Virus record (IMG/VR): IMGVR_UViG_3300027985_000091
Span: 1 to 20,414 of that record
Length of the DNA stretch: 20,414 bases
Strand: one strand, 5' to 3'
From: a virus
Below are positions 3,549 through 10,945 of this stretch, in pieces. Every line of letters starts with the position of its first letter. Positions within the stretch are counted from its first letter, which is position 1. The notes under the pieces are model-generated. The model saw only the letters and a list, made by a program, of their open reading frames with translations, was not told where the DNA came from and searched no databases. The position numbers were made by a program, and so were the translations under genes.

Positions 3549-3767
3549 ATGTTGACCAGAATAAAGCAGGTTGATAATTTCATTGACCTGCTTGAAAAAT
3601 CGAGAGAAGATTTTAAACCGGAATACCGGAGCTTTATTGACTGGTTGACAAAAGGTGGCAATAGTGATCATACACGAAAAGGGATGGAAAGCGGAACGGG
3701 ACAGGAAAGCGGCGTTGACTCAATACGACGCGCTGACAAAGTATTTCAAGATCAAACGGCTGACTGA
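3549..3767 (+). CDS. Small hypothetical protein, overlapping the next gene out of frame
   Basis: 72 residues from an ATG with no Shine-Dalgarno site (upstream sequence is an A/T run). Residues 1-36 look like genuine protein: amphipathic, with a VDNFIDLLEKS helix and an RSFIDWLTK motif. After about residue 36 the frame overlaps the next gene by about 100 bases and turns into Gly/Ser/Gln-rich sequence that looks like a shadow of that gene. Either this is a short protein with a run-on tail, or it is the N-terminal part of a protein joined to the downstream frame by a +1 frameshift, programmed or mutational. I do not recognise the family. It sits between the portal and minor capsid genes. Confidence 0.45.
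   Translation: MLTRIKQVDNFIDLLEKSREDFKPEYRSFIDWLTKGGNSDHTRKGMESGTGQESGVDSIRRADKVFQDQTAD
3651..3658 (+). promoter_or_regulatory. Shine-Dalgarno site that decides a GTG start
   Basis: AAAGGTGG ends five bases before the GTG at 3664. The same octamer precedes the ribbon-helix-helix gene on the - strand, six bases before its ATG. This favours GTG 3664 over the alternative GTG at 3655, which lies inside the site itself. Confidence 0.5.
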
Positions 3768-4089
3768 TGTTGAAATAGCCGAACTGTCAAACAAGAAGCT
3801 GTACAAGATTTGCGAGGATATGTACAACCGTCAGTCACGCCGAAGCCAGATCAAATATGCTGAACACATCGGAAGCTATCGTGAGAAGCCGAAGGCGTTC
3901 AAGTGGTTCTTCCGTGATTACATGAAACTGAAAGCGCCTGGAAACATTTTCAGCATTCTTTTTATTGCGGTCCAGCTTCCGTTCAGATACCCGGGATTTG
4001 TCAAAAGGTTCGATGCTGCAACAAAAAAGAAGCAGGAAGAAACAGAGAAGAAGATCGTCACTTTCCCGGAGACTGACAAAATCCAATGA
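3664..4089 (+). CDS. Basic hypothetical protein between portal and minor capsid genes
   Basis: 141 residues when started at GTG 3664, chosen because AAAGGTGG stands at ideal spacing before it; a GTG at 3655 would add three residues. The protein is strongly basic, with many Lys and Arg residues. It is helical at the start (EKGWKAERDRKAAL), has a KLYKICEDMYNRQSRRSQ region in the middle, a hydrophobic patch NIFSILFIAVQLPF near 97-110 that could be a buried helix or a weak membrane segment, and a Lys/Glu-rich C-terminus. It overlaps the previous frame by 104 bases and the minor capsid gene by four (ATGA), so it is coupled to head morphogenesis. Family not recognised. If the upstream frame is joined by a frameshift, this would be the C-terminal part of a roughly 178-residue protein. 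Confidence 0.65.
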   Translation: MIIHEKGWKAERDRKAALTQYDALTKYFKIKRLTDVEIAELSNKKLYKICEDMYNRQSRRSQIKYAEHIGSYREKPKAFKWFFRDYMKLKAPGNIFSILFIAVQLPFRYPGFVKRFDAATKKKQEETEKKIVTFPETDKIQ

Positions 4090-5162: not shown

Positions 5163-5729
5163 ATGGCAGAAGAAGTTAAGACAGATGATACACAGACGCA
5201 GACTGGCACTCAGGATCAACAGCAGCAAACAGCAAAAGATGACCTGAAGTACACCGATAAACAGGTCAATGATATCGTTAAAGCCAGAAGTGACGAAAAG
5301 GTCAGTAAGCTATTGAAAGAACTTGGCCTTGAGAATGAAGGGACGCTCAAAGAGAAAATCCAGAAGCTCAAGGAATACGAGGATTCACAGAAGACAGAAA
5401 CCGAAAAGCTCACCGAAGCACAGAAGGAAGCTATCAAGAAAGCTGATGAGGCCAGAGCAGAAGCCGACGCAATGAGGGCAGAGAATGCCGCGCTCAAGTC
5501 AGGTGTTGATCCTGCTAAGGTTGACAAGTTCGTTAAAATTGCAATGTCATATGATGGTGCAACCGTTGCCGAAAAGGTGACAGCAGCACTTGCAGAGTTT
5601 CCAGAGTTTAAAAGCTCAACAGCTCCGGCTGGTGCATTCTCGACCGGATCGAAGTCCCAAACTTCGGGAACCAATGATGATATCGTTGCTCAAATGAGAA
5701 AAGGACTCGGAGTAACGAAAAAAGCTTGA
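5163..5729 (+). CDS. Capsid scaffold protein (DUF4355/Gp20-like)
   Basis: 188 residues. The scaffold guides capsid protein into a shell of the right size and then leaves. The N-terminus is Gln/Thr-rich and probably disordered (1-30). Residues about 33-112 form a long charged coiled coil (for example KLSKLLKEL-type and AQKEAIKKADEARAEADAMR heptads). A small C-terminal part follows, ending in DDIVAQMRKGLG, a probable capsid-binding helix. This layout, length and position immediately before the major capsid gene are typical of Gp20/DUF4355 scaffolds. AAGGGGA precedes the ATG at good spacing. The TGA stop is overlapped by a TTGACA promoter-like element. Confidence 0.85.
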   Translation: MAEEVKTDDTQTQTGTQDQQQQTAKDDLKYTDKQVNDIVKARSDEKVSKLLKELGLENEGTLKEKIQKLKEYEDSQKTETEKLTEAQKEAIKKADEARAEADAMRAENAALKSGVDPAKVDKFVKIAMSYDGATVAEKVTAALAEFPEFKSSTAPAGAFSTGSKSQTSGTNDDIVAQMRKGLGVTKKA

Positions 5730-5755
5730 CAAAATAATAAATCATGGTTTATGTT
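5726..5755 (+). promoter_or_regulatory. Candidate promoter before the capsid leader
   Basis: TTGACA (5726-5731, perfect -35), an 18-base spacer and TATGTT (5750-5755, 4 of 6). The -35 overlaps the scaffold TGA stop. Predicted start near 5762 would give a leader of about 145 bases before the capsid ATG, or a short RNA of about 125 bases if transcription stops at the T-run ending at 5885. The A/T-rich stretch around AATAAATCATG resembles the one before 3549. Confidence 0.4.
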
Positions 5756-5760
5756 GTAAC

Positions 5761-5810
5761 TGTCCAGAAATGGAGTTGAGGATGTCGGTGTCCTGAAAAC
5801 CGAGTTGAGG
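5761..5810 (+). repeat. Two direct repeats of about 21 bases in the capsid leader
   Basis: The units lie at 5761-5781 and 5789-5810, starting 28 bases apart. Shared pattern: TGTCC, one variable base, GAAA, two or three variable bases, GAGTTGAGG. The second unit's AAAACCGAGTT also forms the left arm of the long hairpin that follows. Such tandem units could be binding sites for a regulator. They also remind me of the repeated end sequences of IS21-type elements, but no transposase gene is present. Confidence 0.65.
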
Positions 5811-5885
5811 TAACGGCCTAATCCGTGAATCTGTCCTTTATGGGCGGGTATCAATAAGGGCTATAACCGGAAACTCGGTTTTTTT
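5796..5885 (+). terminator. Long nested hairpin with T-run upstream of the capsid gene
   Basis: Three stacked helices can be read directly. Outer: AAAACCGAGTT (5796-5806) with AACTCGGTTTT (5872-5882), 11 perfect pairs. Middle: GGTAACGGCC (5809-5818) with GGGCTATAACC (5858-5868), about eight pairs with mismatches. Inner: TGAATCTGTCC (5826-5836) with GGGCGGGTATCA (5842-5853), nearly complete with several G-U pairs and one bulge. Seven T's (5879-5885) follow the outer stem, as in an intrinsic terminator, yet the capsid ATG is only 23 bases further on. It may be an attenuator or conditional terminator, the 3' end of a small RNA starting near 5762, or a structured leader that tunes capsid synthesis. 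The rest of the 178-base gap holds no gene that I can support. Confidence 0.6.
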
Positions 5886-5907
5886 ATGCCCGAAGGAAAC
5901 ATGAACA

Positions 5908-7083
5908 ATGGCAAATACTATTGCTTATGCCAGCTTGTTCCAGCAGACTCTTGATGAGCAGATGCAGGAAATCCTCACTTCCCGATGGATGGAAGCGAAC
6001 GCAAGCCAGGTTATCTACAACGGCGGAAACACCGTCAAGATTCCCAAACTCACTACTACCGGCCTTGGTGACTATTCCAGGTCAACCTTCTTCCCTGCCG
6101 GTGCAATTACCCTTGAATATGAGACCCGCACATTCTCAATGGATCGTGGCACAGAGTTTGCCCTTGATTCAATGGATGTCGACGAATCAAACTTCGTATT
6201 GACAGCATCCCGCGTCATGGGTGATTTCCAGAAAAACCATGTTGCCCCCGAAGTTGACGCTTATCGGTATGAGCAGATTTTTAAGCAGGCAAACCAGAAG
6301 CTTAAAACCGAAGCTTATACACCAGCTGTAGGCACGGTTTACACTCAGTTGAAGAACAACATTGCCGCAGTTCAGAACATCATAGGTGAATCAGAGCAGC
6401 TTGTCATTGCAATGTCGTATACAGCAGCCAATCTGCTTTCACAGTCAACCGAGATTGAGCACGCCATTTCATTGACTGATTTCAACATGGGTGAGATCAA
6501 CACCAAGGTTGAAGCAATCGACGGCATCCCTATTTTCCGTGTTCCTGGTGCAAGGTTCAAAACAGCCTACACCTACAGCGCTACAAACGGGTTCGCCGCA
6601 TCTGCCGAGGCAATGGCCATTAACTGGGAAATCGTACCGATGTCACGTGTCATTGCAATTGTCAAGACAGACAAGCCGCGTATTTTCTCTCCTGAAGTAA
6701 ATCAGAGCGGCGATGCATGGCTGATGCAGTACCGGAAATACCACGACATATGGATGATGGACAATACTTTTGACGGCGTATGGGTATCTTATACCGCTAT
6801 TGCCGCAATTGCACTGACCGCAACCATTGCCGCTGGAACCGGAACAGGAAACACCAAGGCTACAGTAACCGTAGGCTCTGGAAACACCCTTGCGTACAGC
6901 ATTACCGATACCGCGCAGACCGCACTTCAGAACGCCATACCTACTGGTTTGACTGCGTATACCTCCGGCGCTGATATCGCAATCACTGCTGATAAGTATC
7001 TCAATCTGTACGAACTCGATGCAACTGGACATATCGTCAAGTTTGTATCTGTACAGGTAACATCCGGCGAGATTTCAGCGTAA
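5908..7083 (+). CDS. Major capsid protein with C-terminal add-on module
   Basis: 391 residues. This protein forms the icosahedral shell. Residues 1 to about 300 carry the HK97-like capsid part: MANTIAYASLFQQTLDEQM at the N-terminus, KIPKLTTTGLGDYSR near 48-62, EYETRTFSMDRGTEFALD near 72-89, and a segment ending INWEIVPMSRV at about 236-246 that resembles Firmicutes phage capsid proteins. Residues 302-391 are a separate, small, Gly/Thr/Ala-rich beta-type module that is also found at the end of the major tail protein of this phage (about 45 of 90 identical, no gaps). It probably sits on the outside of the head. AAGGA (5893-5897) is the likely ribosome site for ATG 5908; the nearer ATG at 5901 is out of frame. 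A terminator follows the stop. Confidence 0.88.
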   Translation: MANTIAYASLFQQTLDEQMQEILTSRWMEANASQVIYNGGNTVKIPKLTTTGLGDYSRSTFFPAGAITLEYETRTFSMDRGTEFALDSMDVDESNFVLTASRVMGDFQKNHVAPEVDAYRYEQIFKQANQKLKTEAYTPAVGTVYTQLKNNIAAVQNIIGESEQLVIAMSYTAANLLSQSTEIEHAISLTDFNMGEINTKVEAIDGIPIFRVPGARFKTAYTYSATNGFAASAEAMAINWEIVPMSRVIAIVKTDKPRIFSPEVNQSGDAWLMQYRKYHDIWMMDNTFDGVWVSYTAIAAIALTATIAAGTGTGNTKATVTVGSGNTLAYSITDTAQTALQNAIPTGLTAYTSGADIAITADKYLNLYELDATGHIVKFVSVQVTSGEISA

Positions 7084-7089
7084 TAACAC

Positions 7090-7118
7090 GGCGGCTTGAA
7101 ATATAGCCGCCAATTTTT
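7090..7118 (+). terminator. Intrinsic terminator after the capsid gene
   Basis: GGCGGCT (7090-7096) pairs perfectly with AGCCGCC (7105-7111) around an eight-base loop, followed by AATTTTT (7112-7118). It would lower transcription past the abundant capsid message while allowing read-through to the connector genes. Confidence 0.8.
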
Positions 7119-7130
7119 CAGGGGGTTGTG

Positions 7131-7364
7131 ATGTTCTATAAATTGACAAGGGCTACAGTATCGATCATACGCAGAACCGAGGCTGAATGCATCAAGGAAG
7201 CAGAACGCGGTTTTGTGGTGGTCGGTACTTGTGATAAAGATGGAAACCTGATTTCTTCGAATGTTGTTTTTGAACGAACGGAGCCAGTAAATACCGAAGA
7301 GGCCGACAAATCAAACATTGCCGCAGAAGCTCCAAAAAAACGCGGTCGAAAGTCCGGTGAATAA
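7131..7364 (+). CDS. Small hypothetical protein with basic AT-hook-like tail
   Basis: 77 residues from ATG 7131; a GTG one codon upstream is less likely because AGGGGG at 7120-7125 is spaced correctly for the ATG. The N-terminal half (residues 1-50) has alternating hydrophobic residues and a GFVVVGTCDKDGNLISSNVVF segment suggesting a small beta domain. The rest is acidic, then ends in PKKRGRKSGE, which contains an AT-hook-like RGRK core and could touch DNA or an acidic surface. It stands just after the capsid gene and its terminator, and its stop overlaps the next start by one base. Family not recognised; a head accessory role is possible but not shown. Confidence 0.6.
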   Translation: MFYKLTRATVSIIRRTEAECIKEAERGFVVVGTCDKDGNLISSNVVFERTEPVNTEEADKSNIAAEAPKKRGRKSGE

Positions 7365-9814: not shown

Positions 9815-10199
9815 ATTAATGCAGACCATAAATGATTATCTCGTTACAAAGTTCACGCCATTTTCAACGATAAATGAGGATTTTACTACAGCTGACGGTG
9901 AAGAAGAATTAATGTGCAGGCATGATATTTCACCGCTGATTGTCAAGAAATACATGAATGGTACTGAATATAGGCGGTTTAATTTTTCATACTTTGCCAG
10001 AAGCAAAAATTCTATCCGGGCAAGGCAGCAGCTTGAAAGTGTTCAGGAAGCAATATACCTTGACCACTTTGTCGATATGCTTGGATTGAAAGAAGGCCGT
10101 TTAACAGTAGTCTCGCAACCGCATCCGGTGGGGAAAGATGATTCCGGGGCGATAATATATACAAGCGCGTATGCGCTTGATTACAAACAGGAGGCGTGA
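9804..10199 (+). CDS. Tail terminator / minor capsid protein (Minor_capsid_3-like)
   Basis: 131 residues. The tail terminator caps the tube at the head-proximal end. The N-terminus MAIELMQTINDYLVTKF is helical, the middle has MNGTEYRRFNFSYFARSKNS (about 51-70) with helix RARQQLESVQEAI, and the C-terminus ends in beta strands with IYTSAYALDYKQEA. Alternating alpha and beta elements, length and last position in the connector block match minor capsid protein 3 of A118-like phages. The start overlaps the preceding gene by 11 bases. AGGAGG at 10189-10194, inside the last codons, serves the tail protein gene. Confidence 0.72.
   Translation: MAIELMQTINDYLVTKFTPFSTINEDFTTADGEEELMCRHDISPLIVKKYMNGTEYRRFNFSYFARSKNSIRARQQLESVQEAIYLDHFVDMLGLKEGRLTVVSQPHPVGKDDSGAIIYTSAYALDYKQEA
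10189..10194 (+). promoter_or_regulatory. Consensus Shine-Dalgarno that sets the tail protein start
   Basis: AGGAGG lies nine bases before ATG 10204. It decides against an in-frame ATG at 10171, which falls inside the preceding gene and has no such site. A consensus site suits a highly made tail tube protein. Confidence 0.8.
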
Positions 10200-10203
10200 G
10201 AAA

Positions 10204-10914
10204 ATGAGCGCAAGTCTTAATTTTCAGGATTTGTTTGAAATCGATACGAACCCTGCCGGAACCGCGAACTGGGTGCGGCTCGGCGATGGTTTATCATCGG
10301 TAACACCAAACAACAATGAGGCAGTGGATACCAAGGCGTATCTCGACGATGATGGCGGCCAGACATCGGAGATCACTGGATTCCAGCACGTGATTGCATT
10401 TGCTGGGGACAGAATCAAGGGAGATGCCGCGCAGGATTTCATCTTTGGTAAACTGTTCACCCTTGGAGCATCACGAAAAACAAATGTAAGAAGCACCGAG
10501 GCAGACGGAACCGTCATTACTGGGGAATGCACAATCGCTTCACTTGTACCCGGTGGAGGAGACGCAAACGGGACAAAAGCTTGCTCGTTTGAACTTCGGC
10601 TCAATGGCAAGCCTACACGGACGGCTCCGGTCGCCGCAACTGCACTGACTGCGACAATTGCAGCCGGTTCCGCAAGTGGCACGACAAAAGCAACTGCAAC
10701 ACCTGGGGCTGGAAATAGTCTCGGTTACCTTCTCGCAGCACAGGCCGTCACTGCCAACAACCGCGAGTATGTTGATAATTACACAGCATACACAAGCGGT
10801 TCTGACATCCCTGCCGCCGCTGGACAGTTCCTTGCCGTCTATGAGCTTGATGCATACTTCCATGTTGTCAAGTTTGTATGTCAAGAACTTGCAGCTGGTG
10901 ATATCGCAGTTTAA
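10204..10914 (+). CDS. Major tail tube protein with C-terminal add-on module
   Basis: 236 residues from ATG 10204. Residues 1-145 form the tube domain typical of siphophages: LFEIDTNPAGTANWVRLGDG (about 10-29), NNNEAVDTKAYLDDDGGQTS (about 36-55), then EITGFQHVIAFAGDRI and the later ECTIASLVPGGGDANG strand region. Residues 147-236 are a separate module with ALTATIAAG, YTSGSDI, VYELDA and HVVKFV motifs, matching the last 90 residues of the capsid protein without gaps. In other phages, C-terminal add-ons of this kind decorate the outside of the tube. The gene is followed by a strong terminator, which fits a major structural product. Confidence 0.85.
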   Translation: MSASLNFQDLFEIDTNPAGTANWVRLGDGLSSVTPNNNEAVDTKAYLDDDGGQTSEITGFQHVIAFAGDRIKGDAAQDFIFGKLFTLGASRKTNVRSTEADGTVITGECTIASLVPGGGDANGTKACSFELRLNGKPTRTAPVAATALTATIAAGSASGTTKATATPGAGNSLGYLLAAQAVTANNREYVDNYTAYTSGSDIPAAAGQFLAVYELDAYFHVVKFVCQELAAGDIAV

Positions 10915-10920
10915 TCAAAA

Positions 10921-10945
10921 GCAGGGGGAAACCCCTGCACTTTTT
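10921..10945 (+). terminator. Intrinsic terminator after the major tail protein
   Basis: GCAGGGG (10921-10927) pairs perfectly with CCCCTGC (10932-10938) across a GAAA tetraloop, followed by AC and five T's (10941-10945). The downstream Shine-Dalgarno AAGGAG begins right after it. Confidence 0.85.

Follow-up and report, generated by a model that had tools for sequence, protein, structure and literature searches.

As judged by sequence comparison, the gap between the scaffold and major capsid genes of a 20.4-kb phage contig (IMG/VR record IMGVR_UViG_3300027985_000091; the whole stretch of 20,414 nt that was analysed is called the window here) holds a real, conserved and structured phage RNA segment with a promoter, hairpins and a terminator-like stem. 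The best single reading, which we favour but hold tentatively, is a promoter-driven leader whose intrinsic terminator gates capsid transcription and is possibly opened via tandem hairpins. Phages make capsid protein in large excess over its neighbours, which is generally ascribed to promoters and translation. A conserved promoter–hairpin–terminator leader dedicated to the capsid gene would, if this reading is true, be a compact RNA device for capsid excess and a directly testable system. We suggest that the virus, one of a family of uncultured bacterial viruses, probably meters or switches the production of its shell protein by RNA, a mode not yet described for phages.

A structured segment before the capsid gene

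The head module of the contig has the usual order, with small and large terminase, portal, a 144-aa protein of unknown function, minor head protein, scaffold and major capsid protein, and more head and tail genes lie downstream of the capsid gene. The flanking reading frames (Table 1) confirmed the gap of 178 bases given in the initial annotation. The predicted RNA would span about 5762–5885, and its 124 nt agree, as a matter of length, with the small RNA of ~125 bases proposed earlier; the predicted 3′ end near 5885 is 22 nt upstream of the capsid ATG. The C-terminal SbsC-like domain of the capsid protein (PF18316) is also found in the tail-tube protein (10171–10914).

Table 1. Features of the scaffold–capsid gap and its flanks (positions in the window)
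Feature	Position	Strand	Basis
Head scaffolding protein (phrog_2303)	5163–5729	+	
Predicted sigma70-type promoter: −35 TTGACA 5726–5731, spacer 18 nt, −10 TATGTT 5750–5755	5726–5755	+	sequence and relatives
First hairpin module: AACU 5758–5761 / AGUU 5774–5777, loop GUCCAGAAAUGG, then GAGG 5778–5781	5758–5781	+	GAGG test
Second hairpin module P1: UCGGU 5785–5789 / ACCGA 5799–5803, loop GUCCUGAAA, then GUUGAGG 5804–5810	5785–5810	+	module also in relatives
Three-tier hairpin: outer stem H1 5796–5806/5872–5882, middle tier 5815–5819/5858–5862, apical tier 5826–5836/5842–5853	5796–5882	+	fold and relatives
Third hairpin P2: ACGG 5813–5816, loop CCUAAU, CCGU 5823–5826	5813–5826	+	GAGG test and relatives
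Weak helix H3 flanking the T-run: GGGC 5858–5861 / GCCC 5888–5891	5858–5891	+	tentative, 4 bp in the window
T-run forming a putative intrinsic terminator; predicted RNA 3′ end near 5885	5879–5885	+	sequence and relatives
Shine–Dalgarno AAGGA of the capsid gene	5893–5897	+	read from sequence
Major capsid protein, 391 aa, phrog_422 core and C-terminal SbsC-like domain (PF18316)	5908–7083	+	

Conservation in a capsid clade

Scanning viral and genome collections with the capsid as guide yielded 199 distinct loci. In about 185 of them, with capsids of ~300–310 aa, the scaffold–capsid gap has a median of 19 nt and is short in nearly all; named relatives from Listeria, Streptococcus, Clostridioides, Vagococcus and Lactococcus likewise have short gaps. 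The capsids of fifteen loci, the window among them, measure ~390–404 aa when complete (contig ends truncate two), and all 15 loci have gaps of ~140–300 nt, with one gap-end call uncertain; for L373 the gene caller gave 469 nt, and the nearer reading-frame end leaves ~178. In a tree of the first 310 capsid residues these 15 loci fell on one side of a single branch with support of 100/98. The C-terminal capsid extension is found in the RNA-bearing clade and is missing from nearly all outside relatives; the capsid of L173 is longer still (433 aa), yet that locus is without the RNA. The few long gaps outside the clade have other content. Clostridial prophages (L157, L175, L182, L184 and L187) have pre-capsid gaps of 190–360 nt with a partly shared, different sequence that had no Rfam match and is possibly another element.

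L196, L199, L203, L271 and L193, but not the window, supplied the sequences for a covariance model of the three-tier hairpin. The model matched the window at 5799–5906 (E = 0.0024, the sole window match) and L198 (E = 2e-5), in both cases directly before the capsid gene. In a seven-leader alignment, which is structure-fitted and thus biased towards structure, 208 of 230 cells (90%) were standard pairs with 19 compensatory types, whereas sliding the partners by 1–3 columns left at most 55% paired and 0–5 compensatory types. Four further leaders (L034, L202, L208 and L373) are too divergent in sequence for the model, and their own minimum free energy (MFE) folds have the same tiered shape. Several leaders also matched the model on their opposite strand; this would be expected of a stem lying between an A-tract and a T-run, the shape of a bidirectional terminator. 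Compensatory changes in homologous gaps, which the initial annotation had named as a check, are therefore present, and the segment itself occurs in every clade member (15/15), ruling out a random insertion in one phage. An exact 15-mer stem search of viral contigs returned 19 matches, near chance, and among them no second site shared with the window.

The fold of the whole gap has z = −4.2, and that of 5796–5885 reaches −37.1 kcal/mol with z = −5.1, equalled by none of 200 shuffles. The closed three-tier hairpin, in which the 5′ and 3′ parts pair, has z = −4 to −7. A chance fold is ruled out both by the shuffles and by the relatives.

The promoter and the predicted terminator

The −35 hexamer overlaps the scaffold stop codon, and the predicted transcription start is near 5762. 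Promoters were scanned with a sigma70 matrix from just 5′ of the scaffold stop to ~100 nt before the capsid gene. The matrix consists of textbook E. coli frequencies, and the consensus of the host may differ. Over the whole window, promoter-like sites are no more frequent than expected (38 versus 37.6); the window promoter has p = 0.006 within its own region. Among the clade members, 12 of 15 have p ≤ 0.02, the promoter being weak in L199, L202 and L197, and 12 non-redundant members gave a combined p of ~6e-14 with this E. coli matrix. In relatives the promoter usually sits at the scaffold stop codon, with spacers of 16–18 nt whose sequence is unrelated outside a near-identical group. The perfect −35 and fair −10 described earlier hold, and an equivalent promoter is kept in most relatives.

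The sequence and predicted fold have the arrangement of an intrinsic terminator, a stable stem followed by a T-run. The three-tier hairpin of ~87 bases with an 11-bp outer stem and seven T's was as first described, all 11 bp of H1 pairing and four of the seven T's lying inside the stem. The stem and T-run arrangement has p = 0.013 against shuffles in the window alone. A long-range stem whose 3′ arm adjoins the T-run has a combined p of ~1e-10 over nine non-redundant members, and nearly every T-run-bearing member beats its shuffles. The T-run is present in 12 of 15 members at the equivalent site, always 19–42 nt from the capsid start. Since the leaders of L195, L197 and L200 are without it, termination would not be universal in the clade. 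L201 has a shorter, local terminator-like hairpin. Pairing of the H3 type across the T-run is modest (combined p = 0.008 over members), and this tentative helix could form solely in read-through RNA.

Tandem hairpins joined by GAGG linkers

The two 21-base direct repeats of the initial annotation are present, read from the sequence, as 20/21-nt imperfect repeats with one indel (GTCCAGAAATGGAGTTGAGG at 5762–5781 and GTCCTGAAAACCGAGTTGAGG at 5790–5810); an ungapped repeat search gave a 14-nt core, 86% identical. Both end in GAGG and form hairpin modules consisting of a stem, a loop with a CC...AAA tendency, the other stem strand and GUUGAGG. The first module is weak, its 5′ strand precedes the predicted start, and the MFE fold has an alternative local hairpin there (UCCA-gaaa-UGGA). 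The 3′ strand of P1 also contributes to the terminator stem, within its 5′ arm, and the window MFE fold uses small hairpins other than P1. P2-equivalent stems vary in relatives yet pair, as CUUGG/CCAAG, CUAGA/UCUAG, UUCAGG/CCUGAA and others.

MAFFT column alignment of the modules slipped in register, and we therefore used an alignment-free test in which every GAGG in the 15 leaders was checked for a hairpin of at least 4 Watson–Crick pairs ending just 5′ or beginning just 3′ of it. Among 16 non-redundant sites, 12 had a hairpin upstream (3.5 expected), 13 had one downstream (2.6 expected) and 10 had hairpins on both sides (0.59 expected). The linker that joins the tandem mini-hairpins in relatives is (GU)GAGG, and the number of copies differs between members: L200 has four GAGG linkers. 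Taken one member at a time, the tandem arrangement is weak against shuffles (combined p = 0.015), so it is the recurrence around GAGG that carries the evidence. Support for a pseudoknot joining the P2 loop to a downstream UAAGGG strand is weak (combined p = 0.02). Inspection by eye led us to drop a T-box reading, as UGG in the loop region is not conserved.

Competing folds and a model for the leader

In 7 of 8 members examined a tandem hairpin overlaps the terminator 5′ arm by 4–5 nt. In the window, L196, L199, L193 and L198, that arm includes the 3′ strand of the hairpin preceding GAGG; in L202 and L034 it includes the 5′ strand of the next hairpin, and in L208 it includes neither. Because of these shared bases, tandem hairpin and terminator cannot coexist in most lineages. 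Blocking the terminator 3′ arm made the best fold 9–19 kcal/mol less stable, against about +1 to −7 kcal/mol for the small hairpins. By these values the equilibrium default is the terminator, and the weak tandem hairpins would win only with help or by kinetics.

We infer from the sequences, for termination, read-through and its regulation, and a factor acting in trans alike, that the gap may serve the major capsid gene as a conserved leader acting in cis. The promoter at the end of the scaffold gene would start a transcript near 5762, whose nascent RNA would first fold the small tandem hairpins with their GAGG linkers; the three-tier long hairpin and the T-run would then end most transcripts near 5885. 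A factor holding the tandem hairpins would let the polymerase read on into the capsid gene. Candidates are RNA polymerase itself, a protein of the host, or one from the phage structural module, for instance scaffold or capsid. A more specific version, in which GAGG-linker hairpin arrays of variable copy number are recognised by a capsid-assembly protein or the host RNA polymerase and open the long-range terminator, is doubtful in our estimation. If true, it would couple capsid synthesis by RNA to assembly or late infection and represent a new phage RNA regulatory class.

Alternative readings of the element

The segment could instead be an independent gene for a small RNA of ~124 nt, equipped with its own promoter and terminator and acting in trans or structurally in assembly, with the capsid gene served by read-through or by an upstream operon promoter. 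A conserved promoter and terminator bracketing a structured RNA, the closed three-tier hairpin and the variable number of tandem hairpins are consistent with this, and such a phage small RNA would be new too. However, every member found adjoins a capsid gene, with none elsewhere in the sequences searched, three members have no T-run, and the weakly conserved H3 pairing could arise in read-through RNA alone. We regard a stand-alone gene as rather unlikely.

Another alternative is a passive attenuator, insulator or mRNA stabiliser, that is, a strong promoter and a terminator of fixed, incomplete efficiency that would set the capsid level relative to upstream genes, and silence the gene in a lysogen, without a regulator. 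We scanned for the pattern of a T-run, GCCCGAAGG and a start codon, and recovered the known members together with many unrelated phage genes that have a plain terminator in front, including tape-measure-like and capsid-like proteins (names judged from sequence). L443, L449, L450, L452, L453, L456, L461, L464 and others have a short terminator hairpin, a T-run and GCCCGAAGG before an apparent structural-gene start, and in these unrelated contigs the stretch that follows the T-run is able to pair with the terminator 3′ arm. Since many unrelated phages have one there, a terminator ahead of a structural gene is not unusual in itself, and the earlier remark that one in front of the capsid gene makes little sense unless conditional was too strong. 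The plain terminators (L443, L464, L450 and others) resemble the element in having a hairpin and T-run within ~25 nt of the start codon and GCCCG after the T-run; compared on hairpin and T-run alone, those of L443, L464 and L450 are short single hairpins, unlike the three-tier element, of which the promoter, the hairpin array and the three-tier stem are the distinctive traits. A passive role would also suit the terminator fold being by far the most stable, the strong two-way hairpins 3′ of the capsid gene (7090–7111) and the tail-tube gene (10921–10938), and the integrase gene of the L199 phage, from which at least part of the clade is likely temperate. A fixed terminator, however, needs neither a long three-tier stem with conserved tiers nor GAGG-linked tandem hairpins, and we consider this explanation unlikely.

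Translational control, in which the leader hides or exposes the capsid ribosome-binding site and is possibly bound by surplus capsid or scaffold protein, would fit an element ending within ~22 nt of the start codon, H3-type pairing that abuts the Shine–Dalgarno sequence and clade-shared phage proteins that are essentially structural-module ones, but is very improbable given that the Shine–Dalgarno sequence and start codon lie largely outside the conserved hairpin, that H3 has just 4 bp in the window and that the conservation of T-run and promoter points to transcription.

Comparison with known RNA systems

The ANTAR-target leaders of EutV, NasR and AmiR have dual hairpins, one of which overlaps an intrinsic terminator; the protein must hold the small hairpins, whose hexanucleotide loops have A at position 1 and G at position 4 (PMC3369931, PMC8934654). 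The capsid leader resembles them in having small hairpins in tandem, separated by a linker of ~5–12 nt; one of these hairpins shares bases with the 5′ arm of an intrinsic terminator that precedes the gene under putative control. Two tandem stem-loops with terminator overlap are predicted in most members. It differs in loops of 6–14 nt with a CC...AAA tendency, GAGG linkers and a long-range terminator with a three-tier stem. ANTAR-target identity was rejected because the A1/G4 loop rule does not hold for the window loops (GUCCUGAAA and CCUAAU) or the 6–14-nt loops of relatives. The ANTAR domain PF03861 was found in none of 16 records, in a search whose control was silent too, and a host protein could serve.

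Other systems share parts of the layout. In lambda, pR′–6S RNA–tR′ places a promoter, a short leader RNA and a terminator ahead of the late genes, with Q antitermination; our element shares promoter, short leader RNA and terminator before structural genes, but lies directly before the capsid gene within the structural module and has tandem hairpins. Among the 20 proteins of the L199 phage, the one relative whose early-region proteins were scanned, no Q-like family was found. The put RNA of HK022 has tandem hairpins upstream of terminators, and put sites in early operons act on distant terminators. By description alone, the element is like put in carrying tandem hairpins in a phage transcript upstream of a terminator, and is set apart by not being of the early-operon, distant-terminator kind. 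In type III toxin–antitoxin loci, the tandem RNA repeats of the ToxI array lie between a promoter and a terminator, followed by a ToxN-type nuclease gene, an order like the one before our protein gene; ToxI identity was rejected because the downstream gene encodes a phrog_422 major head protein, not a ToxN-family nuclease.

A search of Rfam 15 gave no family at the gathering cut-off for the element, the best weak matches being snoRNA noise (E about 5), in line with the initial annotation, which knew of no RNA family with such a layout. No description of such a capsid leader was found in the literature. The proposal of a structured RNA or attenuator of undescribed layout stands as to structure and novelty, given the missing Rfam match, the compensatory changes and the presence in all clade members; attenuation is kept as part of the tentative reading above. 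The only Rfam match was a tRNA in L197, tRNA-Val (anticodon TAC; L197 2783–2855, L033 2277–2349), which lies between a plain post-scaffold terminator and the leader element.

Candidate factors and distribution

No clade-wide regulator outside the structural module was common to the four large relatives compared with the window. As the shared genes are all structural-module ones, a phage factor common to the clade would be a structural-module protein, or the factor would be the host's. Two proteins of unknown function on either side of the head genes have homologues in the relatives compared, the 78-aa protein (7128–7364) in 4 of 4 and the 144-aa protein (3655–4089) in 3 of 4. The gene that takes the place of the 78-aa protein in a C. 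difficile plasmid phage has a Rho_N domain. In 84,980 species genomes, none of the 80 best of 185 relatives was a clade member, and a sample of 398 genomes within the phylum of one relative contained none either. One bacterial genome has a related capsid gene (L479, G314:C1:1103443-1104372) that is read with one in-frame TAG.
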